Part shown: piece after piece, positions 7,477-36,245 of the stretch
How positions within the stretch are numbered: position 1 is the first letter of the stretch
How the letters are laid out: every line of letters starts with the position of its first letter
NCBI GenBank assembly: GCA_021296175.1
Contig: JAGWAX010000008.1
Location: forward strand, 1 to 37,673
Length of the DNA stretch: 37,673 nt
DNA from: Nitrosopumilaceae archaeon
GTDB taxonomy: Archaea; Thermoproteota; Nitrososphaeria; Nitrososphaerales; Nitrosopumilaceae
Reading direction: 5' to 3'
The notes under the pieces: model-generated
The model's database searches: none
Told to the model about the DNA's origin: nothing
What the model saw: only the letters and a program-made list of their open reading frames with translations
Position numbers and translations under genes: made by a program

Positions 7477-7971
7477 ATGAGCAGTAGCGGCGGCGGCAGC
7501 GGCGGCAGCGGCGGCGGCATGACCACAGAACAGAGAGCAGAACAGATGGCCGCGGCCATAAAGTCAATGGAGGGCCAGCTTGAGATGGTAATCCGAAACG
7601 AGGAGGCGGCAGCTAGGGCGCGCGCGTCCGCGGCCAGTGCAGTAGAGTCAGTCAGGCAGATCAAGGAGAAGGAAGCCGGCGGGACCTCAGAATCATCGTC
7701 CGAAACCCTGCTTGCCATAGGAGGAGGCGTCTTTGTGCAGGCAAAGGTCGCCCCATCAGACAAGATGCTGCTGGAGATCGGCTCAGGGGTCGCCGTTGAG
7801 AAGGATCCCAAGCTCGTGCTGGACTATCTGGAGAACCGCATAAGGGAGATCGACGTGGCAATCAAGAACACGGGCGCCGAGAAGGCAAACCTGGCAGAGC
7901 ACATAGAGCAGTACAGGATGCAGCTTAGCCAAGTCATACAGTCCACATACGGCCAGAGAGGGCATGTTTGA
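7477..7971 (+). CDS. pfdA: Prefoldin alpha subunit
   Basis: This is the alpha subunit of the hexameric prefoldin chaperone, which captures unfolded proteins and passes them to the thermosome. At 164 residues it has two coiled-coil helices, about 17-65 and 110-155. Between them lies the beta-hairpin region LLAIGGGVFVQAKV and LLEIGSGVAVEKD, both diagnostic. A Ser/Gly-rich N-terminal tail of about 14 residues (built from GGC/AGC codons) is unusual; MTTEQRAEQM at 7519 could be the core start, but the TATA spacing favours 7477. It overlaps ftsY by 8 nt, a pairing common in archaea. Confidence 0.93.
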   Translation: MSSSGGGSGGSGGGMTTEQRAEQMAAAIKSMEGQLEMVIRNEEAAARARASAASAVESVRQIKEKEAGGTSESSSETLLAIGGGVFVQAKVAPSDKMLLEIGSGVAVEKDPKLVLDYLENRIREIDVAIKNTGAEKANLAEHIEQYRMQLSQVIQSTYGQRGHV

Positions 7972-9655
7972 CAAGCTGCGCGGCGCGTTTGCCGGCGTGG
8001 CAAAGAGTCTGGGCGAGAGGGAGCTAAAGGAAAAGGACATCGACGATGTACTGTTCGAGCTTGAGATATCGCTCCTGGAGTCCGACGTCGCAAGCGAGGT
8101 GATAGACTCGATAAAGGCCAACCTAAAAAAGGATCTCATAGGTTCGAGGGTAGAAAAATCCAGGATATCAGACGCCATAAAGTCCAGCCTGATCTCAAGC
8201 ATATCGTCGCTCTTTGACTCGGCGGGCCGCGTCGACCTCCTGGATATGATCAGCAGAAAAAAGGCATCCGGCGAGCCGTTTCTGATTCTGTTTGTGGGAA
8301 TCAACGGGACGGGAAAGACCACAACACTTGCAAAGGTGGCACACATGCTGCAGCAGTCAAAATATTCCGTTGTCGTCGCCGCGTCAGACACGTTTCGCGC
8401 GGGCGCCATAGAGCAGCTCAAGGAGCATACGAGGCGCCTGAACCTAAAGCTTGTTGCACAAAACTACAATTCAGATCCGGCAGCGGTGGCAAGGGACGCC
8501 GTCCTGTACGCAAAGGCCCACCGCACGGACTGCGTGCTGATAGACACCGCCGGCAGGATGCAGACCAGTAAGAACCTGATGGAGCAGATTGCAAAGATTA
8601 CAAAGGTGGTGAACCCGGACGTAAAGATATTCGTGGGCGACTCGCTGGCCGGAAACGATACGGTGAACCAGGCAAGGGAGTTCTACGTGCATACAAGGTT
8701 TGACGCGGCCATCCTGACAAAAGCAGACGCCGACGCACGCGGGGGCGCGGCCCTCTCAATTGCAAAGGTCACGTCCACGCCCATACTCTACGTGGGGGTT
8801 GGGCAGGAGTACGCCGACCTAAGGCCGTTTGACAAGAGGGCGTTTCTGGAGATGGTTTTCGGAGAGGACGGCGTGGCCGGCGCCGATTCCGAGGCGCCCG
8901 CGACAAGCGCCGCGCAGGCAGGAGGCGCGGAGCGGCCAGAAGAGGCGGAGGGCGAAGAGATGCCGGCAGAACCAGACACCGCGGAGGAGGCCGCCAGCGC
9001 GGATGCGGATGCAGCTACTGCAAAGAGGGCCGAAGAGGCCGACAGTGCAGGACAGGAAGAGTCAGAGGGCGAGATGGACGCGCCACAAGAACCGCCGCCT
9101 GCGGAACCCGCGGAACCCGCGTCGGAGATGCCGCCACGTGCGGAGAGTTACGAGAGCCTGCCTGAACCGGAACGGCCCAGTGAGCCGGAACCGGCCTCAG
9201 AGCCGGAACTAGACGTCCAGAAGACACCCAAGATCGAAGAATTTGAACCAGAGGATGCGGAGGCGGCGCCCCAGCCGTCATCGTCGTCGCCACCAGACGA
9301 TCCGTTCCATGGAATTGCAGATTCCGACATTGCAGAATACTCTGACAGGTTTGACGTACCACCCCCCGAGAACGACAGGGAGGCGTACGGACTTGCAGAG
9401 AAGATAAGAGGATGGATTGCAGACGGCAGGCCGGACCCGGGCGATGGCGGTGGAACCGATGCAGACGGCAGCAAGATGGAAGTGGAGGAAGACAGCCGGG
9501 ATTATGACGGAGGCGACGGGGAGGAGGGCGCCCAAAAAGACTACGACGGAGGCGCAGGCCGTAACGGTAAGAAGGCCGGACAAGAGCCAGGGCAACAAGA
9601 TAAAAATGACATGCCCAAAAAGAAGCGCAGATTTGGATTCTTTAGAAAGGGGTGA
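7964..9655 (+). CDS. ftsY: Signal recognition particle receptor FtsY with long acidic C-terminal extension
   Basis: FtsY is the SRP-receptor GTPase that docks ribosome-SRP complexes at the SecY channel. Residues 1-300 form the NG domains: helical N domain, P-loop VGINGTGKTTTLAK, DTFRAGAIEQL, DTAGRMQTSKNLMEQ and TKADADARGG, ending near GVGQEYADLRPFD. About 260 further residues follow, rich in Glu, Asp, Pro and Ala and probably disordered. They end in a basic, aromatic patch, KKKRRFGFFRKG. Bacterial FtsY carries an acidic region at the N-terminus; here a similar region is at the other end. The basic tip could bind acidic lipid. The GC-rich repetitive codons of the tail (GAA/GAG, CCG, GCG) still fit the frame through to the stop. 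argF follows after 9 nt. Confidence 0.95.
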   Translation: MFDKLRGAFAGVAKSLGERELKEKDIDDVLFELEISLLESDVASEVIDSIKANLKKDLIGSRVEKSRISDAIKSSLISSISSLFDSAGRVDLLDMISRKKASGEPFLILFVGINGTGKTTTLAKVAHMLQQSKYSVVVAASDTFRAGAIEQLKEHTRRLNLKLVAQNYNSDPAAVARDAVLYAKAHRTDCVLIDTAGRMQTSKNLMEQIAKITKVVNPDVKIFVGDSLAGNDTVNQAREFYVHTRFDAAILTKADADARGGAALSIAKVTSTPILYVGVGQEYADLRPFDKRAFLEMVFGEDGVAGADSEAPATSAAQAGGAERPEEAEGEEMPAEPDTAEEAASADADAATAKRAEEADSAGQEESEGEMDAPQEPPPAEPAEPASEMPPRAESYESLPEPERPSEPEPASEPELDVQKTPKIEEFEPEDAEAAPQPSSSSPPDDPFHGIADSDIAEYSDRFDVPPPENDREAYGLAEKIRGWIADGRPDPGDGGGTDADGSKMEVEEDSRDYDGGDGEEGAQKDYDGGAGRNGKKAGQEPGQQDKNDMPKKKRRFGFFRKG

Positions 9656-12035: not shown

Positions 12036-12599
12036 GTGAGTGAAGACACGGCGGCGGCGGCGGCGACAACGGCGACAGAAGAACAGGATGGCGGCAATAA
12101 TAATGGCAATAGCAGTGACGACAGCGGCGCGTACCTGGTGGTAAGGATAAGGGGCCAGGCAGACGTCCCATACTGGGCCGTGCACACGATGTCTCTCCTA
12201 AAGCTAGAGCGCAAATACAGGGCCACCATACTGCCGGCAAAAGAGAACACGCTTGGCATGCTCAGCAAGATAAAGCACTATGTGGCATGGACCAGGCTCG
12301 ATGCCGAGCTGGCCCAGGAGATCATAGAGAAGAAGGCAAGAAAGTCCGGATACCGCAGAATCACGCAGGAGGACATCAAGGGCCTCGGGTTTGACGGCAC
12401 AAAGCAGATGGCCGAGTCCCTCTCAAGGGGCAGCTCCGCGCTCTCAAAGCTAAAGCCCCTCAAGCCGTGGTTTGCGCTGGCGCCCCCCAAACACGGGTTC
12501 CGCCGCAGCACCAAGAGGCTTGCGGGCCAAAAGGGAGTGCTGGGCAACAATGACGAGCTCGGCGAGATAGTACGCAGGATGATGGCGGTGGCGGAGTGA
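12036..12599 (+). CDS. rpl30: 50S ribosomal protein uL30 (L30), GTG start
   Basis: uL30 is a large-subunit protein. The archaeal-length form has 187 residues. The first 32 or so residues are Ala, Thr, Asp and Asn rich and look disordered. The conserved domain begins AYLVVRIRGQADVP and contains YRATILPAKENTLGMLSKIKHY. The C-terminal archaeal extension includes KPWFALAPPKHGFRR. The start is GTG 12036, because the nearby ATG 12031 leads straight to a stop. The stop overlaps the next ATG by one base (TGATG), which shows tight coupling. Confidence 0.94.
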   Translation: MSEDTAAAAATTATEEQDGGNNNGNSSDDSGAYLVVRIRGQADVPYWAVHTMSLLKLERKYRATILPAKENTLGMLSKIKHYVAWTRLDAELAQEIIEKKARKSGYRRITQEDIKGLGFDGTKQMAESLSRGSSALSKLKPLKPWFALAPPKHGFRRSTKRLAGQKGVLGNNDELGEIVRRMMAVAE

Positions 12600-22851: not shown

Positions 22852-22927
22852 CAGGCATAACACTCACACCAGAGGCGGCGGCTCATGGCGCATCAGAATA
22901 CAACAGTGACAGGTGACTGCAACAGGT

Positions 22928-25018
22928 ATGGAAACGGATCTTACGTGGATGATGGGCGGCCCGCAGGGAAGCGGGGTCGAGTCGGGCGCAAACATATTCT
23001 CGCAGGTGTGCGCGGAGGCCGGCTACCACATATTTGGAAAGCGCGAGTTCTACTCCAACATAAAGGGGGAGCACAGCTACTTTGCAGTAAGGGTCACCGA
23101 TGGCGTCACGCATTCGAGCACGAGCGGGGCGGACCTGCTGGCGGCATTCGACGCCGAGACCGTATTCAGGCACTACGACGACGTGCATGGCGGCGGCGGC
23201 GGCATAATATACAACTCAGAGATAGAACGGATCGGCACAGAGCGCGTCCATACGCTTGACGGCCCGTTCGTAGAAAGGCTGCACAGGCGGCTTGACGAGA
23301 GCGGCGCAGAGCGCACCGTCGCAGGGGCCCTGCAGTGCGCCCGCAGCAGGGGCGTCTCTCTGTATCCCGTGCCGTTCAAGGAGATACTCGCAAGGCTTGC
23401 AGAGAGGACGGGCGACCCGAAGCTGGGGGGGTTTGTCAGGCTGTACAACACCATTGCAGTGACCCTCTCGCTCAGGCTGCTGGGAATGCCGGCCGCGCCG
23501 CTGCGGAACTCGGTTGCAAAAATATTCGCAAAAAAGCCGGCGGTGTCGGACATCAACGTCCAGGCCGCCACGCTGGCGTACGACGCGCTTGACACGTACG
23601 CTGATGCCGCAAGCACTCAGGCGGCCCGCCGGCTGAGAGGCCCGGGACAGAGGGAGCCCCACACCATACTGGTCCAGGGATACCAGGGGACGGCGCTCGG
23701 CAAGATGGCCGCCGGCTGCAGGTTCCAGGCATACTATCCGATCACCCCCGCGTCAGACGAGTCCGTATACATGGAGACGCACGAGATTATCGACGTGATA
23801 GACGACAGGCCCGGCAGCACCGCCGTGATACAGACAGAGGACGAGATATGCGCAATAGGCATGACCATAGGGAGCGTCCTGACGGGCACGCGCTCGGCCA
23901 CCTGCACGTCGGGACCCGGGTTCTCGCTCATGAACGAGTCGCTCGGATGGGCCGGGATAAACGAGGTACCCATAGTTATAACGGACTACCAGCGGAGCGG
24001 TCCCGCGACAGGGCTGCCCACAAGGCACGGGCAGGACGACCTGCTTTCTGTGGTATTTGCCGGCCACGGAGAGTTTCCAAGGATAGTCTACGCGTCCGGG
24101 AGCGTAGAGGAGAGCTTTTACGACACGGGCAGGTGCTTTAACTATGCCGAAGAGTTCCAGGTGCCCCTGATACACATGATGGACAAGTTCCTTGCAAACA
24201 CGGTCCAGACGTGCAGGAGGTTTGACCCGCAAAGGGTGGAGATACGGCGCGGCAGGCTGCTCGGAGAGGCGGCGGCGGTGTCGGACAGAACTGCAGGGGA
24301 GGCGGCAGGGGCAGCGGGCGACGGGCATGACGGAGGCAGTGGGGAGGAAGAGGCTTCACCCGCGTACCACAGGTTTGCATTCACAGAAGACGGCATATCC
24401 CCCCGCGCCAAGCTTGGCATGGACGACTTCATATTCTGGAACACGGGCGACGAGTCTGACGAGACCGGACACATTACAGAGGATCCCATACTGCGCACCA
24501 GAATGATGGAAAAGCGCATGTCGAGGCTGGACCTCATACTGGACAGGATGCCGGCAGGTGAGCAGGCTCTGGAAGTGATAAGTGGGCAGGCGCATGACCA
24601 CGACGACGACGACGACGACGACGAGGGTGACGACCGAACCGGAGGCGCCCGCCCCATTACTGCCATAACATGGGGCTCGGCCACGGGACCTGCACGCGAC
24701 GCAGTCGAGATGCTCCGGCGGCAGGACGGCATACGCGCAAGGCTCATACAGGTAAAGCTGCTACATCCGTTTCCAACCAGACGCGTAGCAGAACTGCTGC
24801 AATCCGACGGCCGCGAAGACCGCATCGTGGTAGACATCGAGTCCAACTATTCGGGCCAGCTCGGCACGCTCCTTGCGCAGAACATGGGGCTCCGCGTGGA
24901 CCACTATATACTAAAATACTCGGGCAGAGGCATGACGTGCACGGAGATACACGACACGCTGAAGAAGATAGCGGACGGGACGGCAGAGAAAAGGGAGGTG
25001 CTGATGTATGGCGCTTAG
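22928..25018 (+). CDS. korA: 2-oxoacid:ferredoxin oxidoreductase, fused gamma-alpha subunit
   Basis: With the beta subunit it oxidises a 2-oxoacid (2-oxoglutarate or pyruvate) with CoA and reduces ferredoxin. The gene encodes 696 residues. The gamma domain comes first (WMMGGPQGSGVESGANIFSQ). The alpha domain carries AYYPITPASDE, the hallmark of archaeal two-subunit enzymes, and SGPGFSLMNESLGWAG. A variable region near residues 460-490 and a poly-Asp run near residue 560 are low complexity. ATG 22928 is preferred, with AGGTGA upstream; GTG 22913 adds five residues. It overlaps the beta subunit by 11 nt. In thaumarchaea this enzyme probably feeds the incomplete TCA route. Confidence 0.92.
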   Translation: METDLTWMMGGPQGSGVESGANIFSQVCAEAGYHIFGKREFYSNIKGEHSYFAVRVTDGVTHSSTSGADLLAAFDAETVFRHYDDVHGGGGGIIYNSEIERIGTERVHTLDGPFVERLHRRLDESGAERTVAGALQCARSRGVSLYPVPFKEILARLAERTGDPKLGGFVRLYNTIAVTLSLRLLGMPAAPLRNSVAKIFAKKPAVSDINVQAATLAYDALDTYADAASTQAARRLRGPGQREPHTILVQGYQGTALGKMAAGCRFQAYYPITPASDESVYMETHEIIDVIDDRPGSTAVIQTEDEICAIGMTIGSVLTGTRSATCTSGPGFSLMNESLGWAGINEVPIVITDYQRSGPATGLPTRHGQDDLLSVVFAGHGEFPRIVYASGSVEESFYDTGRCFNYAEEFQVPLIHMMDKFLANTVQTCRRFDPQRVEIRRGRLLGEAAAVSDRTAGEAAGAAGDGHDGGSGEEEASPAYHRFAFTEDGISPRAKLGMDDFIFWNTGDESDETGHITEDPILRTRMMEKRMSRLDLILDRMPAGEQALEVISGQAHDHDDDDDDDEGDDRTGGARPITAITWGSATGPARDAVEMLRRQDGIRARLIQVKLLHPFPTRRVAELLQSDGREDRIVVDIESNYSGQLGTLLAQNMGLRVDHYILKYSGRGMTCTEIHDTLKKIADGTAEKREVLMYGA
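24602..24622 (+). repeat. (GAC)7 trinucleotide run encoding poly-Asp
   Basis: Seven consecutive GAC codons lie inside the korA-like gene, giving HDHDDDDDDDEGDD. The run falls in a linker between conserved blocks, so its length is probably free to vary without breaking the enzyme. Confidence 0.85.
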
Positions 25019-28622: not shown

Positions 28623-29492
28623 TCACACCGCCGCCGCAGAAGACGACAGTCCGCGAACATAGACGCACTGCCCCGCAGGCACGGCAGTCTCAGACGGGCC
28701 GGGGCGCCGGCCTGTCAGCGGAATGCCCGAGTCGCGTATTATTACAAACGGGACGGACTCGGCGCCTTCTCCCATTGCGTGGTTTGCCACTGTAGCCATA
28801 GAGTCCGATGCGGCCTGAAACGTCACCTTGAGCGGATTGCCCTCAAGATCGGGCCTGGATCTGGCATCCCTGACCGGCTCTATGCCCGCATGGGCCACGG
28901 CCACCCCGGACGTCCCGATCCTTGCAGGCATCAGCCGGCTGTCGACCAGTATCACCCCTATGGCAACGCCCATCTCAAGCAGGATCTTGCGCCGGAGCAG
29001 CTCGGCAGTCTCGTAGGGCGAGTCAGGGTACAGCACGGCCCTGCCCCTTCGTACGTTTGACAGGTCTATCCCGGCATTGGGTGCAAGCAGCAGGCCGTGC
29101 CGGGGGGCGCCGACAGTCCGGGGCGCCGTGCGGCGGGCGCCGGGGCCGGTGGGGGGTGACTCGGCAGAAGGCGGGCGAAACGGGGCGGATGCCGCGATTA
29201 CAAAACCTGCCACCCCCCCGAATACGCGATCCGACTCCCGGAGTACAAGCTCGGCCATCTCATGGCTCAGTCCATATAGCCCAGCGAGGCGCCGCGCCTG
29301 CACAGAGGCGCGCACGCCCCGCACGTCTATAATTCGCCCCTCCGCATACGAGGCGTACTTTGTGGATACGGCAAGTATGTCCCCCCGCGCAAGACGCATG
29401 CCGCGGCGCCCAAGCGAGCGGGCAAGCTCTGCAAACATGTCAAACCTGCCACCCATGTGCCTCGACTCAAGCGGCAGCACTGTCAGCGGCAC
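28623..29492 (-). CDS. cofE: Coenzyme F420-0:L-glutamate ligase, GTG start
   Basis: CofE uses GTP to add gamma-linked glutamate to F420-0, finishing coenzyme F420. The 289-residue product starts PLTVLPLESRH and carries GDILAVSTKYASYAEGRI, LLAPNAGIDLSNV, YPDSPYETAELLRRKI and GTSGVAVAHAGIEPV, all typical of the family. The open frame runs upstream to 29822, but that part overlaps the divergent isomerase promoter. GTG 29492 sits 27 nt after a TATA-like AATAAAAG on this strand and removes the extra region. A Pro/Arg-rich insert (APFRPPSAESPPTGPGARRT) is unusual. It points to F420-dependent redox chemistry in the cell. Confidence 0.92.
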   Translation of the reverse strand: MPLTVLPLESRHMGGRFDMFAELARSLGRRGMRLARGDILAVSTKYASYAEGRIIDVRGVRASVQARRLAGLYGLSHEMAELVLRESDRVFGGVAGFVIAASAPFRPPSAESPPTGPGARRTAPRTVGAPRHGLLLAPNAGIDLSNVRRGRAVLYPDSPYETAELLRRKILLEMGVAIGVILVDSRLMPARIGTSGVAVAHAGIEPVRDARSRPDLEGNPLKVTFQAASDSMATVANHAMGEGAESVPFVIIRDSGIPLTGRRPGPSETAVPAGQCVYVRGLSSSAAAV

Positions 29493-29661
29493 GAATGGCG
29501 CATACCGCGGCTCTCTTTTATTCTTGGCGGGGGGCTTTGCGGCCAAGCACCGGCAGCAGAAGAAGGCTTTGCGTGCGTACCGGGCCAGTCTGGGCACAAA
29601 ACCCAGCGCCTGCGGCACATGTACAAAACTTTTAACCCGTAACGACATCCCGCGGATTGTA

Positions 29662-30984
29662 ATGAATCTGGTCGAAAGAATTCTTGCGCGCGCGTCTGGC
29701 AGAAGCAGCGTGTCGCCGGACGACGTGGTATTTGCAAAGGTGGACAGGGCCATGCTGCACGACGTGTCGGGGCCCGGGGTGATCAAGGTCTTTGAGAGGA
29801 TTGCAGGGCAGGGAATCCCCACGGACAGGCTGTGGGATCCGGACCGCGTGTGGGTGGCCGAGGATCACTTTGTGCCGTCGGCAGAAAAGATATCAGCGGA
29901 GAACATTGCGAGGCTCTCCGAGTTCACCAGCAGGTACGGAATCAAGAACCACTTTAGGTACGGGATGGGCCAGTACGGCATATGCCACACCATATCCCAC
30001 GAGGAGGCCATGGTGATGCCGGGGGACGTCTATGTCGGGGGCGACTCCCACACCAACACCACCGGGGCGCTCGGGGCCTTTGCATGCGGGCTGGGGCACA
30101 CAGACATGGCGTACGTGCTGCTCAACGGCCAGATATGGTTCAAGGTTCCCGAGACGATGTACTTTAGGCTCAACGGAAGGCTGCCAAGCCACGTGATGGC
30201 AAAGGACTTCATACTGAAAATAATAGGCGACATCGGGACCGACGGCGGGGCCTACAGGACCATGCAGTTTGGGGGGACGGGCATAGAGGAGATGTCCCTC
30301 GAGGGCCGGCTGACCCTGTGCAACATGACGACGGAGGCGGGCGCCAAGAACGGAATAGTGCGCCCGGACCAAAAGACCGTCGCATACCTGGAGGAGAGGA
30401 TGAGCGGTGCGGGAAGGGAGGCGGCAAAGGTGAGCCTGGGCCGCGGCGGCGCAGACTACTCGGAGCCGGACGGGGCCGACTCGGACTATGCCGCGGTATA
30501 CGAGTACGAGGCCTCGGAGCTGGAGCCCGTGGTGGCCGAGCCGTTCTCGCCGGAGAACACCAGGCCCGTCAGCGAGGCCCCGTCGGTGGAGCTTGACAAG
30601 TCGTATATCGGCTCGTGCACGGGCGCAAAATACGAGGACTTGGAGGCCGCGGCGCGAATACTAAAGGGCAGAAAAGTCAGGATCAGGACAGAGGTTCTTC
30701 CGGCCGCCATATCGATATACAGGCGCGCCATGGAGTCGGGGCTTCTCAAGATATTTCTGGACGCGGGGGCCATGGTAGGGCCGCCCACGTGCGGCGCCTG
30801 CTGCGGCGCGCACATGGGCGTACTGGGCAAGGACGAGGTATGCATCAGTACTACGAACAGGAACTTTCCCGGCAGGATGGGGCATGTCGAGTCCAGGACG
30901 TACCTAGCGTCCCCGATGGTGGCCGCGGCATCCGCGATTACGGGCAGGATAACCGACCCGAGGGAGATCGTGCACGCGGCATAA
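29662..30984 (+). CDS. Aconitase-family dehydratase large subunit, archaeal LeuC/HacA type (first pair)
   Basis: This is a [4Fe-4S] isomerase large subunit of 440 residues. GGDSHTNTTGALGAFACGLGH and the cluster motifs IGSCTGAKYEDLE and PTCGACCGAHMG give three ligand cysteines. NRNFPGRMG is the family arginine loop. It resembles the archaeal-type isopropylmalate isomerase/homoaconitase group. The C-terminal half carries an acidic insert (ADYSEPDGADSDYAAVYEYE). The start is ATG 29662, with TTTTAA centred 29 nt upstream. The open frame extends far upstream, antisense to cofE, and is ignored. The small subunit follows directly. Substrate could be isopropylmalate, homocitrate or citramalate. Confidence 0.9.
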   Translation: MNLVERILARASGRSSVSPDDVVFAKVDRAMLHDVSGPGVIKVFERIAGQGIPTDRLWDPDRVWVAEDHFVPSAEKISAENIARLSEFTSRYGIKNHFRYGMGQYGICHTISHEEAMVMPGDVYVGGDSHTNTTGALGAFACGLGHTDMAYVLLNGQIWFKVPETMYFRLNGRLPSHVMAKDFILKIIGDIGTDGGAYRTMQFGGTGIEEMSLEGRLTLCNMTTEAGAKNGIVRPDQKTVAYLEERMSGAGREAAKVSLGRGGADYSEPDGADSDYAAVYEYEASELEPVVAEPFSPENTRPVSEAPSVELDKSYIGSCTGAKYEDLEAAARILKGRKVRIRTEVLPAAISIYRRAMESGLLKIFLDAGAMVGPPTCGACCGAHMGVLGKDEVCISTTNRNFPGRMGHVESRTYLASPMVAAASAITGRITDPREIVHAA

Positions 30985-31007
30985 TGGGAGGGGAGAGGAA
31001 CAGGAAC

Positions 31008-31550
31008 GTGAGCGACAATAACGCAGTTACGGGCGGCGTAATAAAATATGCGAGGGACAACATAGACACCGACGTCATCATACCGGGGCAGTATCTGAAG
31101 ATACACGACTATGCGGAGCTTGCAACGCACGCGATGGAGGGGCTTGACGGGGACTTTCACTCAAAGGCCAAGAACGCCAGCTTTATCGTGGCGGGCCGCA
31201 ACTTTGGATGCGGCTCCTCAAGGGAGCACGCCCCGATAGCGCTGGCCCACTCCGGAATCAAGGCGGTGGCGGCCCTCTCGTTTGCAAGGATATTCTACAG
31301 GAACGCGGTGGACGGCGCGTTCCTGCTGCCCATAGAGATAGGGGAGGACGCATACGAGGGCACAGGCGAGGGGGACGTGGTAACCATAGACGTCAAGGCA
31401 GGCCAGATGCGCAACGAGACTACAGGCAGGAGGTACGAGATCAAGCCGTTCTCAGAGATCATAGGCAAGATAATAGAGGCAGGGGGGCTGTTCAGGTATG
31501 GGATGCAGCAAAAGCAGCAGAAACAGCAACAGCAACAACAGGGGTCCTAG
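31008..31550 (+). CDS. Aconitase-family dehydratase small subunit, archaeal LeuD type (first pair)
   Basis: The swivel-domain partner of the large subunit just before it has 180 residues. [20 protein letters not shown] and [17 protein letters not shown] are the family hallmarks, the second carrying the substrate-binding Ser/Arg. The C-terminus is a poly-Gln and Lys tail ([14 protein letters not shown]). GTG 31008 is chosen because GGAGGGGAG lies upstream and the N-terminus then matches the family. ATG 30984, which overlaps the previous stop, would add eight basic residues. The linker loop GRNFGCGSS differs from the GENFGCGSS of the second small subunit, which suggests different substrates. 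Confidence 0.9.
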
Positions 31551-31552
31551 GC

Positions 31553-32998
31553 ATGGCGCAGAACGCCTCCACCTTGTTTGAAAAGATATGGGACTCGCAC
31601 GAAGTATTGCGCAATGGCGCAGACGGCCCGTCACTGCTCTACGTGGATAGGCACATGGTGCACGAGGTAACGTCCCCGCAGGCCTTTGAGGGGCTGCGCG
31701 CAAACAGCAGGAAGGTCAGGCGGCCGGGCCTTACCGTGGCCACGATGGACCACAACGTGCCGACCACGCCCGGCGAGCGCAGGCTTCCCATGGCGGACCA
31801 GACGTCTGATCTGCAGGTGCGCACGCTTGAGGAAAACTGCCGTGAGTTTGGAATCAGGCTGTTTGGCATGGGCAGTCCCGATCAGGGGATTGTGCACGTG
31901 ATTGGTCCGCAGCTTGGCATTACACTGCCGGGGGCCACGATAGTGTGCGGCGACAGCCACACCTCGACCCACGGGGCGTTCGGGGCCCTGGCCTTTGGGA
32001 TCGGCACAAGCGACGTCGAGCACGTCCTGGCATCGCAGACCGTATGGATGCAGAAGCCCAAGTCCCTTGAGATTATGATACGCGGGCGCATGTCAGGGCC
32101 GCGCGCGGTCACTGCAAAGGACGTCATACTGTACGTGATACGGAAGATTGGGACGGACGGCGGCGCGGGACACGTGGCAGAGTACAGGGGCGAGGCCGTA
32201 TCTGACATGTCAATGGAGCAGAGGATGACAATCTGCAACATGTCAATCGAGGCGGGCGCCAGGGCGGGGCTCGTGGCGCCGGACGAAAAGACGTTCGAGT
32301 ACCTGCGCGGCAGGACGTACACGCCGGAAAACTACGAGGAAATGGTGAACGTGTGGGAAAAGACGCTTAGGACCGATTCAAAGGCGTCGTTTGCAAAGAG
32401 GTACGAGATCGACGCAGGCAGGATAGCCCCCCAGGTCAGCTGGGGGACGAACCCGGGAATGACGTGCGACGTTACGGAGGCGGTGCCGGATCCCGCCGAG
32501 TATGGGGACGGCGACAAGTCAAGGGAGGATAGCGCCAGAAAGGCACTACAGTACATGGGGCTCGAACCCGGGACGCCCATGACCGAGATACCGCTTGACA
32601 GGGTCTTCATCGGATCGTGCACCAATGCGAGGCTCGAGGATCTCATCGAGGCGTCCCGCGCAGTCAGGGGGAGAAAGATTGCACGCGGGGTGAGTGCCAT
32701 GGTGGTGCCAGGCTCGCAGGCAGTAAAGAGGAGCGCGGAGGAGATGGGCCTTGACGTTATATTCAAGGACGCGGGTTTCGAGTGGCGCGAGTCGGGATGC
32801 AGCATGTGCCTCGGAATGAACCCGGACATACTCATGCCGGGCGAGCGCTGCGCGAGCACCTCCAACCGCAACTTTGAGGGCAGGCAGGGGGCGGGGGGCA
32901 GGACGCACCTTGCAAGCCCCGTGATGGCCGCCGCGGCCGCCGTGAACGGCCACTTTGTAGACGTAAGGGAGATGGACATGCAGGATGGAGCCGTTTAG
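31553..32998 (+). CDS. leuC: 3-isopropylmalate dehydratase large subunit, bacterial type (second pair)
   Basis: It isomerises 2- to 3-isopropylmalate in leucine biosynthesis. The 481 residues match the long bacterial Leu[35 protein letters not shown] and [16 protein letters not shown] are typical, as are the cluster cysteines in [12 protein letters not shown] and [11 protein letters not shown]. The start ATG follows the small-subunit stop of the first pair by 2 nt; the open frame continues upstream but only as a shadow. It overlaps leuD by 14 nt. Presence of a bacterial-type LeuCD beside an archaeal-type pair suggests lateral acquisition of one of them. Confidence 0.95.
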
Positions 32999-33653
32999 GA
33001 CAGTCAGGAGCGTGGCAACGCCGCTTGACAAGATAAACGTCGATACTGACCAGATAGTGCCAAAGCAGTTTCTAAAGCTGGTGCAGCGCTCGGGCTTTGG
33101 AAAGTACCTGTTTTATGACTGGAGGTATGAGAGTGTAGAGGGCGGCAGCGGCGGTGCATCCGTCGTCCCGAGGCCCGACTTTGTACTAAACCATCCCAGA
33201 TACAAGGGCTCGGCCATACTCGTGACGGGGGAGAACTTTGGGTGCGGCTCCTCAAGGGAGCATGCGGTATGGGCCCTTGCCGACTATGGGTTCAGGGCCG
33301 TGATCGCGCCATCCTTTGCAGACATATTCTACAACAACTGCTTCAAAAACGGCGTGCTCCCGGTCACGCTTGAGAGGGGCGAGGTTCGCGACATGCTCAA
33401 GTTTGGGGGCGACATAGAGGTCGACCTCAAGGCCGGGGAGGTAAGGATGTACAGCCCGGGGAGTACCGCCGGCCCGTCTCACGTGGCGCGGTTTGAGATG
33501 GAACCACACAGGCGGACGGTCCTTTTGGAAGGGCTAGACGAGATCGCGCAGACACTAAAGTACGAAAAGAAGATATCAGAGTTTGAGAGGAAGTCGGGCC
33601 TGGCAGAGAGCGCGATCCCTTCCCTGCCCCCCGACAAGCCACTCAGGGCATAA
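32985..33653 (+). CDS. leuD: 3-isopropylmalate dehydratase small subunit, bacterial type (second pair)
   Basis: This is the partner of LeuC, 222 residues, somewhat longer than the archaeal form. [39 protein letters not shown] and [17 protein letters not shown] are diagnostic. The C-terminal part carries the longer helical end of bacterial LeuD ([19 protein letters not shown]). The start ATG overlaps leuC by 14 nt, so the pair is translationally coupled. All four isomerase genes appear to form one transcript from the promoter at 29630. Confidence 0.95.
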
Positions 33654-33749: not shown

Positions 33750-34619
33750 CTACGAGGCTCCTGCCCCGGGGCGCGCGCGGGTCATTTCAGACAGTATCTC
33801 AAGTATAGCGTCCTTTTTTCTCTCCAGAACCGCGGGCGATTCTACGTCGACCCACTGCGCATCGCCAATGTCAAACGCGCTTATTGAGCCCTCCTCTGAG
33901 AGGCCCTGCAGTATGTCATGGGAGAGGTTGATCTGCGTCCGGACGGCAGCGTCTCTGCCACTGCCATCGCCACTGCCATCGCCACTGCCATCGCCACTGC
34001 CATCGCCCGTCTTACGCGTAGCCCGCGTCACGGAATTCACACGATCCATCGCGTCGGATATGCGCGACAACACGCCGTGATGCAGTATATACACCCCAAG
34101 GCATTCGGACAAGGGCAGTTCCATCACAGGCTTTTCGATGAACTTGAGCACGACGCCGCCGTCACCGACTACGGCAAAACCCGTCTCTTCTGCACGCTTG
34201 GCGCGAGTCGCAATGCACACCGTGCTTCCCATGTCACGAAACTGTCTGTACATTCCGGCCAGGTCCACGGCGCACAGGTTGTCGGCGAACCACAACACAA
34301 ACGGCTCGCCCGGCGGGATCAGTCCCGATGCGTGCAACAGGTCCCCGCCGGTGCCGCTCTGCGAGTCCTGCACGAATGCGATACGACGTCCCGAGTCGCA
34401 CGCGGGATCGTCTGCGCCGTAATAGTTGTAGATCTGCCCCCCCAGTCCCGCAAGATCGGCGATTACAACAATCTGGTCCACAAATTCAAATGACTCGACA
34501 TACCGTACAATGTGGTCGATGAGAGGCTTGTCGCGTACGGGAGTCATCGCCTTTGGAAAGTACTCCGAATACGGCCTACCCCGGGTGCCCTGCCCGCCGG
34601 CCATGATTATTGCCTTCAT
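33750..34619 (-). CDS. Sugar-phosphate nucleotidyltransferase
   Basis: This is a GT-A-fold NTP transferase, 289 residues, like glucose-1-phosphate thymidylyl- or UTP-transferases. MKAIIMAGGQGTRGRPYSEYFPKAM carries the GxGTR...PK signature that binds the nucleotide, and FVLWFADNLCAVDLAGMY holds the metal-binding Asp. ETGFAVVGDGGVVLKFIEKP is typical. Four tandem GDGS repeats sit in the linker before the C-terminal part, about residue 205-220. The arginine in GTRGRP replaces the usual Leu. A TATA box (GATATAATC) is about 31 nt upstream. Probable role is activation of sugars for surface glycans. Substrate is unknown. Confidence 0.88.
   Translation of the reverse strand: MKAIIMAGGQGTRGRPYSEYFPKAMTPVRDKPLIDHIVRYVESFEFVDQIVVIADLAGLGGQIYNYYGADDPACDSGRRIAFVQDSQSGTGGDLLHASGLIPPGEPFVLWFADNLCAVDLAGMYRQFRDMGSTVCIATRAKRAEETGFAVVGDGGVVLKFIEKPVMELPLSECLGVYILHHGVLSRISDAMDRVNSVTRATRKTGDGSGDGSGDGSGDGSGRDAAVRTQINLSHDILQGLSEEGSISAFDIGDAQWVDVESPAVLERKKDAILEILSEMTRARPGAGAS
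33958..34005 (-). repeat. Four perfect 12-nt tandem repeats encoding GDGS
   Basis: The unit CCACTGCCATCG on the plus strand repeats four times without mismatch. On the coding strand it gives (GDGS)4. Perfect copies suggest recent expansion and possible length variation between strains. Confidence 0.9.
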
Positions 34620-34724: not shown

Positions 34725-35177
34725 CTACCGGTATGATTTCTGTTTTCTTCTTCTCGCGCCGGGCCCGCCGAACTTTTTGGGTTCCTTGCGCCTGGCATCG
34801 CCACTTATCAAGTACTTGTCATAGTCGGCAATCCATTTGTGCAGAGTTTCGCGCTCGGATTTTGAAAAGGGGTGCGCCCGCGGCTCCTTCTTGGACTTTG
34901 TCCATCCTGTCAGGGCCCTGGATATCCCAATGGAGGCGGCCCCTGCCTGTCCCATGACGCCGCCGCCTCTGACGCGTACAGAGATGTCAATCTGCTGTCG
35001 CACACCCTCGCCGGCAATCTCAAGTGGCGCAAGCATCACCTCCCTTGCAATCTCCTGCGGAATCATCTCAACAGGGACGTTGTTTATGCGCACCCTACCC
35101 TTGCCCTTTGTTATGTATACGTGGGCGCTAGAGGTCTTGCGCGTTGCAAAATATATCTCGGTCTTTGGCGTCGTCAT
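34725..35177 (-). CDS. rps9: 30S ribosomal protein uS9 (S9)
   Basis: uS9 is a small-subunit head protein whose C-terminal tail reaches the P-site tRNA. The 150 residues include TEIYFATRKTSSAHVYITKG, DISVRVRGGGVMGQAGA and the basic end RRRKQKSYR, matching the conserved KSYR/KRR tail. ATG 35177 overlaps the uL13 stop by four bases (ATGA). It is last in the eL18-uL13-uS9 unit. The rpoN gene that usually follows in archaea is not adjacent. Confidence 0.95.
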   Translation of the reverse strand: MTTPKTEIYFATRKTSSAHVYITKGKGRVRINNVPVEMIPQEIAREVMLAPLEIAGEGVRQQIDISVRVRGGGVMGQAGAASIGISRALTGWTKSKKEPRAHPFSKSERETLHKWIADYDKYLISGDARRKEPKKFGGPGARRRKQKSYR

Positions 35178-35905
35178 TCAGTCCACCCTATCACTCTGCA
35201 GAGCTCCCCCATCGTGGTATACGAGGACGCAGATCTCGTTATCATTGCCTTTTCAAACCGCACCTTTTTGAACGGTTTTAGTTCCCTGGGCGAGCCGACG
35301 TAGGCGCGCAGGCGCTTGTGGGATGTCTTGCCAGACGGTTTTTTCTCAAAAGGCAGCATCCCGCGTATCATCTTTGTAATCACCGTGTCGGGCCTGCGGT
35401 AGTGGACGGGCCCATGCTTTGGGTTGATTATGCTGTTGATCTTTAAAAACTGCCGGTATTCGTGTATGGTGTTGGAGCGAGAACCGCTTATCATGATGCG
35501 TTCGCAGTTTACAAGGGAGATGCGGTTTCCCTTCAGGAGCATCTTTGCAACAAGTGACGAGAGACGGCCTGCAATGTGATCAGACGCATCGACCACAATG
35601 GGCCTGTCGGTGCCGTCGGCGTGCGGATTGGGCGTCTTTCCCTTGCCCGAACGCGTCCCGGGTGCTCCCGCAGCGTCGGCAGGCGCGTCGCCAACACCAG
35701 AATCGTCAGAGTCCCGGCTCTTTGTAGCAAGATCTCCTTCGGGGCGCACGTCCTCCTGCAGCTCTGCAGATATCTCTTTTTTGGAATCCAGTGAGATCTC
35801 TAGCACTTGCTCTTTATTTTCTTCCACAGGCTGGGAGGATGGCGCCGCCGCATCATCAGAAGGCGCATCGCCCGGCCTCGAAGAGGCGTCATTGCCCTCA
35901 GCCAA
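35174..35905 (-). CDS. rpl13: 50S ribosomal protein uL13 (L13) with long acidic N-terminal extension
   Basis: uL13 is an early-assembling large-subunit protein. The conserved domain starts near residue 101 (RPIVVDASDHIAGRLSSLVA) and contains ERIMISGSRSNTIHEYRQ, GPVHYRRPDTVITKMIRGML and RLRAYVGSPRELKPF. The 100 residues before it are Asp, Glu, Ser, Ala and Pro rich and probably disordered. The start ATG 35905 overlaps the eL18 gene by 8 nt, as expected in this operon. A later internal start is possible, but no ATG precedes the conserved domain closely. Total length is 243 residues against about 140-150 usual. Confidence 0.94.
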   Translation of the reverse strand: MAEGNDASSRPGDAPSDDAAAPSSQPVEENKEQVLEISLDSKKEISAELQEDVRPEGDLATKSRDSDDSGVGDAPADAAGAPGTRSGKGKTPNPHADGTDRPIVVDASDHIAGRLSSLVAKMLLKGNRISLVNCERIMISGSRSNTIHEYRQFLKINSIINPKHGPVHYRRPDTVITKMIRGMLPFEKKPSGKTSHKRLRAYVGSPRELKPFKKVRFEKAMITRSASSYTTMGELCRVIGWTE

Positions 35906-36245
35906 GCAGGATGACCCCCTTGCCGGTCGGATTCTGGCTTATCAGAACGTCGTGCGCAATGGCAGTCCCCCCCGCCTCCTTGATCTTTGAGAGGGCGCTT
36001 GCAGATATAGAGAAAGAGTACAGGGTGATGCGGTGCGGGATGCTTCCCGTGCCCAGCACCTTGCCCGGAAAGACCACGGTATCGTCGGCCTTTGTAAGCT
36101 GCCCAAGCCGTTTTATGTTGATATTGCGGCGCGCAGACGACGGCTTTAGCAGGTACTCTGCAAGACGGGCCCACAGGGGGGCATCATGCTGCAAGGACGC
36201 CTTTTTGAGGTCTCGCGCGGTATGCAGCAGCACGGAATTTGCCAT
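35898..36245 (-). CDS. rpl18e: 50S ribosomal protein eL18 (L18e)
   Basis: An archaeal/eukaryotic-specific large-subunit protein of 115 residues, related to uL15. Family marks are LLKPSSARRNINIKRLGQL, DDTVVFPGKVLGTGSI and AGGTAIAHDVLISQNPTGKG. The start ATG 36245 has a TATA box (CATTATATTT) 26 nt upstream, so this operon has its own promoter. In most archaea this gene directly follows rpoD; here a 658-nt gap separates them. Confidence 0.95.
   Translation of the reverse strand: MANSVLLHTARDLKKASLQHDAPLWARLAEYLLKPSSARRNINIKRLGQLTKADDTVVFPGKVLGTGSIPHRITLYSFSISASALSKIKEAGGTAIAHDVLISQNPTGKGVILLG

Follow-up and report, generated by a model that had tools for sequence, protein, structure and literature searches.

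A long acidic extension of ribosomal protein uL13 and the gain of low-complexity sequence in a small clade of Nitrosopumilaceae archaea

Introduction

Does the gene of ribosomal protein uL13 (rpl13) in a Nitrosopumilaceae archaeon encode 100 acidic residues ahead of its ribosomal domain, and do these residues belong to a genome-wide habit of adding acidic disorder to core proteins? Both had been proposed in an earlier note on one contig of this archaeon (JAGWAX010000008.1 of assembly GCA_021296175.1, positions 1 to 37,673), which, over its full length of 37,673 nucleotides (nt), we call here the window. In this work, we describe the extension, which is most likely translated, and the habit, which is real, confined to a clade of three genomes rather than spread over the genus, and better described as a gain of low-complexity sequence poor in Lys and Arg.

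The genome to which the window belongs (1.78 Mb in 166 contigs, 91.5% complete, with 59% G+C on the surveyed stretches) was compared with genomes named Thaumarchaeota archaeon or Nitrosopumilaceae archaeon, plus one Cenarchaeum sp., with G022, G013, and G006 as free-living-type references and controls. In a tree of ten proteins, the window genome groups with G061 and G062 on a long branch adjoining the sister branch G019, and these three genomes are 96.6-96.7% identical over the ten concatenated proteins. In one study, seven of 11 sponge-associated Thaumarchaeota have 47-67% G+C, whereas free-living ones have 32.5-34.2%, except one at 41.8% (PMC7848895). From the G+C content of the window genome set against these ranges, we infer that it and its relatives are sponge symbionts.

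The acidic extension of uL13

The uL13 gene lies at 35174..35905 on the minus strand and encodes 243 amino acids from a TTG start at 35905. Residues 102-207 match the Pfam family Ribosomal_L13 (PF00572; E-value 6.2e-20, 71.9 bits against a curated cut-off of 23.8) and, since this is the single match in the whole genome, the protein is presumably the ribosomal copy. The extension, recognized by its composition, substitution pattern, and AlphaFold2 prediction, comprises residues 1-100 (35606..35905, minus strand), among which there are 23 Asp or Glu (D/E), 10 Lys or Arg (K/R), 12 Ser, 9 Pro, and 14 Ala. It is low in complexity and has an isoelectric point (pI) of 4.22, versus 10.72 for the 143-residue domain. 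Thus, the earlier note had placed the extension correctly to within one base, and these figures also bear out what it said of the length, about two-thirds of that of the ribosomal domain, and of the richness in Asp, Glu, Ser, and Pro. In an AlphaFold2 model built with 39 sequences, the extension is predicted to be disordered, with a predicted local distance difference test score (pLDDT) of 45-55 per ten-residue block and no secondary structure, beside a domain that scores mostly about 90 or higher. Its best-conserved block is the linker adjoining the domain, TRSGKGK.PNPHADGTD (35606..35656, minus strand), where 16 of 17 alignment columns are identical in the three genomes of the clade and whose TD end is common to the short uL13 tails of relatives.

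The domain itself is ordinary for an archaeal or eukaryotic uL13 and matches ribosomal chains in the PDB. In chains of 140-143 residues (9sra, 4v4n, 6skf, and 8hku, which we take to be archaeal), the match begins at residue 1-3, unlike in the window uL13, and the longest N-terminal overhang among the single-domain PDB matches listed is that of 5xxb, where the match starts at residue 71 of 269.

That the open frame is not due to chance follows from three observations taken together: only 3.3% of base shuffles of the extension DNA stay open, a full-length, open, and aligned extension is present in both sister genomes (83% protein identity to the window genome in G061, sequence L032, and 79% in G062, sequence L033), and the substitutions are synonymous more often than random. 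By the Nei-Gojobori method (NG86), the non-synonymous (dN) and synonymous (dS) substitution rates between the window and L032 are 0.098 and 0.21 in the extension, and 0.018 and 0.179 in the domain; between the window and L033, they are 0.111 and 0.525, and 0.012 and 0.286, respectively. Over the three possible pairs, dN ranges from 0.10 to 0.13 and dS from 0.21 to 0.53 in the extension, with a domain dN of 0.006-0.018, which results in a dN/dS of about 0.2-0.5 for the extension versus 0.02-0.10 for the domain. When the observed substitutions were scattered randomly over the extension (3000 trials per pair), the real non-synonymous codons were fewer than random in every pair (P = 0.031, <0.001, and 0.0017). 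In addition, the extension measures 100, 100, and 102 residues in the three genomes, the sole length change being one of six bases, or two codons, in frame. This in-frame change and the synonymous bias make it most likely that the extension is translated and weakly constrained.

A mis-called start, with translation beginning at the domain and a non-coding frame upstream, would be suggested by the TTG that serves as the inferred start (35903..35905, minus strand, inside the end of the eL18 gene with an overlap of 8 nt) and by an in-frame GTG at the domain boundary. The TTG is nevertheless found in 40 of 40 aligned genes from the window genome and its relatives, with an eL18 overlap of 8 nt in 35 of them and of 11 nt in the other five. 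As the start codon chosen was the one whose overlap came closest to 8 nt, the overlap arises partly by construction, but the identity of the TTG does not. These 40 genes were taken from 57 uL13 sequences read (39 were used for another alignment), the 17 omitted being same-genome repeats, further same-genus genomes, and L039, whose tail start is unclear. Together with the synonymous bias and the in-frame length change, the shared TTG renders a mis-called start scarcely credible.

Origin of the extension

Elsewhere in the genus, the uL13 tails are mostly 14-29 residues long and usually basic, for instance LANGRINKPAGRNSNTSKQEIVIR, and differ in this from the long form, with which they share the TTG start and, for the most part, an initial LA.G and a terminal TDRPI. 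Longer tails are present in G019 (76 residues) and G021 (59 residues). In the latter (L038:1722-2315), the sequence AQEIKDIPEPAGTG appears twice, apparently as a recent tandem duplication. Over the order, 5 to 105 residues precede the first strand, with charges from basic to acidic, and in outgroups the extension is absent or short. Elsewhere in the phylum, two longer-looking frames (286 and 271 residues from stop to stop) among the matches listed for 386 genomes with a match were rejected as open frames running back through eL18, their starts leaving tails of some tens of residues at most. The short tails of the other same-genus genomes and the ten-protein tree indicate that the acidic part was probably inserted on the branch of the three-genome clade, into an older, short (about 14-29 residues), and usually basic tail whose LA.G and TDRPI ends would still be recognizable.

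Other enlarged ribosomal proteins

The survey of ribosomal proteins that the earlier note had proposed recovered the same pattern. It covered 25 ribosomal proteins on four contigs of the window genome, named by Pfam and compared with G022, G013, and G006, and seven of them are enlarged (uL13, uL24, uS7, uL30, uL5, uL4, and uL3). G061 and G062 have all seven enlargements too, and the lengths vary by as much as 29 residues. More striking than uL13 is uL24 (L123:7288-8046, minus strand, in the window genome), with a hyperacidic C-terminal tail of 141 residues, including 41 D/E and 5 K/R, versus 23-35 charge-balanced residues in the references. This tail measures 141, 130, and 125 residues in the three clade genomes, and its non-synonymous changes are again fewer than random (P = 0.0155, <0.001, and <0.001). 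Additions at the N-terminus comprise 70 residues in uS7 (70, 75, and 68 in the clade), 32 in uL5, and 38 in uL4, which also gains 49 at its C-terminus (49, 20, and 30 in the clade), while uL3 has a basic internal insert of 45 residues. The acidic or low-complexity tail previously reported for uL30 (12036..12599, plus strand; Pfam Ribosomal_L30 at residues 33-83) is present as a 31-residue N-terminal extension with 7 D/E and no K/R, which measures 28 and 25 residues in the sister genomes; in relatives, the protein begins close to the domain.

The additions are net negative in six of the seven enlarged proteins. Taken together, eight added segments amount to 506 residues with a net charge of -74 (D/E 0.217, K/R 0.071), whereas the corresponding sites in G022 hold 89 residues with a net charge of +3. 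The other 18 proteins are not enlarged, or by less than about 20 residues: uS9, eL18, uL18, uS5, uL15, uL2 (identified with PF03947, since PF00181 gave no uL2 match in 61 genomes), uS12, uL23, uS19, uL22, uS3, uL29, uS17, uL14, eS4, uS14, uS8, and uL6. No uS11 was found in the window genome, and the alpha operon thus lies outside this survey. In the high-G+C genome G063, uL24 (L140:3126-3836) carries an Ala/Lys/Glu-rich C-terminal tail of 105 residues, net positive with 12 D/E and 17 K/R, which is apparently an independent enlargement.

Archaeal and eukaryotic ribosomal proteins are known to carry similar non-globular additions to universal proteins, which individual lineages gained several at a time (PMC7804294, PMC11764897); compared with these, the additions described here are long, mostly negative, and restricted to one small clade. 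Searches of an open-licence library listed no work that, judging from its title or the opening of its abstract, deals with acidic ribosomal protein tails in these archaea.

Sequence gain across the proteome

Gains in proteins of all kinds were counted as internal and C-terminal segments of at least 8 residues relative to G022, N-terminal gains being excluded and proteins split by large inserts being omitted. The set consists of 99 reference genes kept out of 142, 56 of which have one alignment covering at least 70% in the window genome. Such a segment is present in 17 of the 56 proteins of the window genome, versus 3 of 82 and 3 of 99 in two free-living-type controls. Per 1000 aligned residues, the window genome gains 54.4, G061 39.3, and G062 45.3, versus 18.6 in G019, 9.9 in G006 (mostly one 213-residue C-terminal difference), 8.1 in G063, 3.8 in G021, and 2.8 in G013 outside the clade. 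The gained residues of the clade are 0.55-0.62 G/S/P/A/T, 0.14-0.17 D/E, and 0.07-0.09 K/R, on a background in the reference proteins of 0.29, 0.13, and 0.13, respectively. The genome-wide habit proposed in the earlier note therefore holds as a pattern of enlargement, both in ribosomal proteins and in proteins generally, but not as one of acidity: overall, the additions are poor in K/R and rich in G/S/P/A/T rather than acid-rich, with more acidic segments in the ribosomal proteins, some members, above all uL24 and uL13, being strongly acidic.

The habit does not simply follow G+C content, as G021 and G063, both with about 66% G+C on the compared stretches, show the low gains given above. Slippage at repeats is likewise not supported as the main source, since the 7.35 tandem-repeat arrays per 10 kb of the window genome fall inside the range of eight other genomes (3.5-8.5). 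Single cases resembling slippage are the GDGS repeat of a nucleotidyltransferase, a Q10 run in a class I tRNA synthetase, and the repeat in the uL13 tail of L038. The same synthetase (L090:15332-18628, minus strand) exceeds its G022 orthologue by about 140 residues and contains at least six low-complexity inserts, including the Q10 and an Asp/Asn run.

Probable accretion under weak selection and its alternatives

The explanation we favor, and consider somewhat probable, is that this lineage in particular, under weak selection, accumulated disordered, net-negative sequence at sites that tolerate it. The clade would have gone through a phase of gaining low-complexity, K/R-poor segments at unconserved, solvent-exposed sites, from which they were not removed. 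Later selection would have preserved an open frame and a broadly similar composition, with the letters drifting several times faster than those of the domain. In uL13, the tail would be exposed to solvent on the ribosome, where it most likely forms a flexible, negatively charged brush on the large subunit and has hardly any specific function, or none. We favor this explanation since lengths shift fast even though the three genomes share 97% identity in conserved proteins, one ribosomal insert, that of uL3, is basic, most ribosomal proteins have no tails, and non-ribosomal proteins show gains of a similar kind. Several observations weigh against it. The length of the uL13 extension is nearly constant (100, 100, and 102 residues), and its last block is well conserved (16 of 17 columns), beyond what pure drift would suggest. 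Moreover, all but one of the ribosomal segments are net negative, and they are more acidic than the gained segments overall, so their charge may be selected, and slippage is not shown as a source, the tandem-repeat density being no higher than in relatives.

If charge is selected, the tail could act as an in-built chaperone which, in place of a separate one, would, until assembly, mask the basic rRNA-binding domain of the same protein and keep it soluble. The pairing of a tail of pI 4.2 with a domain of pI 10.7 in uL13 is consistent with such a role, as are the net negative gains in six of the seven enlarged proteins and their sum of -74 versus +3 in G022, and dedicated chaperones in yeast are described as protecting new ribosomal proteins, several of them by binding near the N-terminus of the client (PMC6648895). 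Charge-changing replacements are also somewhat rarer than random in the tails of uL13 (P = 0.017, 0.33, and 0.07) and uS7 (P = 0.006, 0.17, and 0.03), even though this test is weak, with P = 0.35, 0.08, and 0.012 for uL24; a comparison of net charges is uninformative, as, by symmetry, the mean difference between two sister sequences is expected to be zero. With the basic uL3 insert and the 18 of 25 surveyed proteins that have no such tail also speaking against it, we hold the chaperone to be rather unlikely. A broader version, in which the ribosome of the clade would bear a selected negative outer brush of at least seven proteins and about 70 net negative charges, led by uL24 and uL13, with a role as chaperone or in preventing ribosomes from adhering to one another and to RNA, seems to us distinctly unlikely.

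Alternatively, the stretches AAAPSSQP, EQVLE(I/L)SLDSK, and TRSGKGK.PNPHADGTD, conserved in the three genomes, might dock a partner on or off the ribosome, and ribosomal protein extensions elsewhere are described as making mainly protein-protein contacts and as acquired together (PMC7804294). Given the closeness of the three genomes (96.6-96.7% identity), these blocks weigh little; AlphaFold2 shows no structure in them, they do not appear in the G019 and G021 tails, and a docking site is quite improbable. Adaptation to salt or osmotic stress, as in the acidic proteomes of haloarchaea, would fit the net negative additions but is extremely improbable and was rejected as a proteome-wide trait, since the positions conserved with G022 are no more acidic in the window genome (D/E 0.118 versus 0.127).

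Other features of the window

The archaeal gene order eL18-uL13-uS9 is present (36245-34725, minus strand), and neither neighbor of uL13 has an extension: upstream, eL18 (35898..36245, minus strand; Pfam Ribosomal_L27A and Ribosomal_L18) has 115 residues and, downstream, uS9 (34725..35177, minus strand) has 150, versus 149 in G022.

FtsY (7964..9655, plus strand) does have the long acidic C-terminal region ascribed to it, but this region is genus-wide and was rejected as evidence for the habit: it is also found in G022, G013, and G006, partly as PEPT repeats (the form seen in G013), and therefore predates the clade. It is hypervariable, with PEPT or EPEPKP repeats in relatives, and retains a motif similar to DDPF.GI..D.I..YS..FD.PPPEND as well as an end that is basic and aromatic, KKKRGLFGF..K; from their sequence, these two look like a linear motif and a membrane-binding tip.

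The poly-Asp run noted before in the 2-oxoacid:ferredoxin oxidoreductase (22913..25018, plus strand; Pfam POR_N and POR) is present as seven Asp within one of two low-complexity inserts, both absent from the G022 orthologue. The insert of the nucleotidyltransferase (33750..34619, minus strand) ends in the GDGS repeat and measures 34, 27, and 30 residues in the three clade genomes. At 29077-33653, aconitase-type genes for a large and a small subunit, judged by eye to resemble leuC/leuD, occur as two sets in a row, and a frame at 984-2546, near the contig end, has a weak DDE_Tnp_1 match (22.3 bits, just under the 23-bit cut-off) and is a possible transposase.

Implications

Few proteins are as conserved or as basic as those of the ribosome. 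The addition of several hundred disordered, mostly acidic residues to them in a prokaryotic clade would test how much the ribosome tolerates, and may also probe whether the charge at the ends of ribosomal proteins matters for assembly. Since related genomes have no such tails or share them only in part, these matters would be open to a comparative approach.
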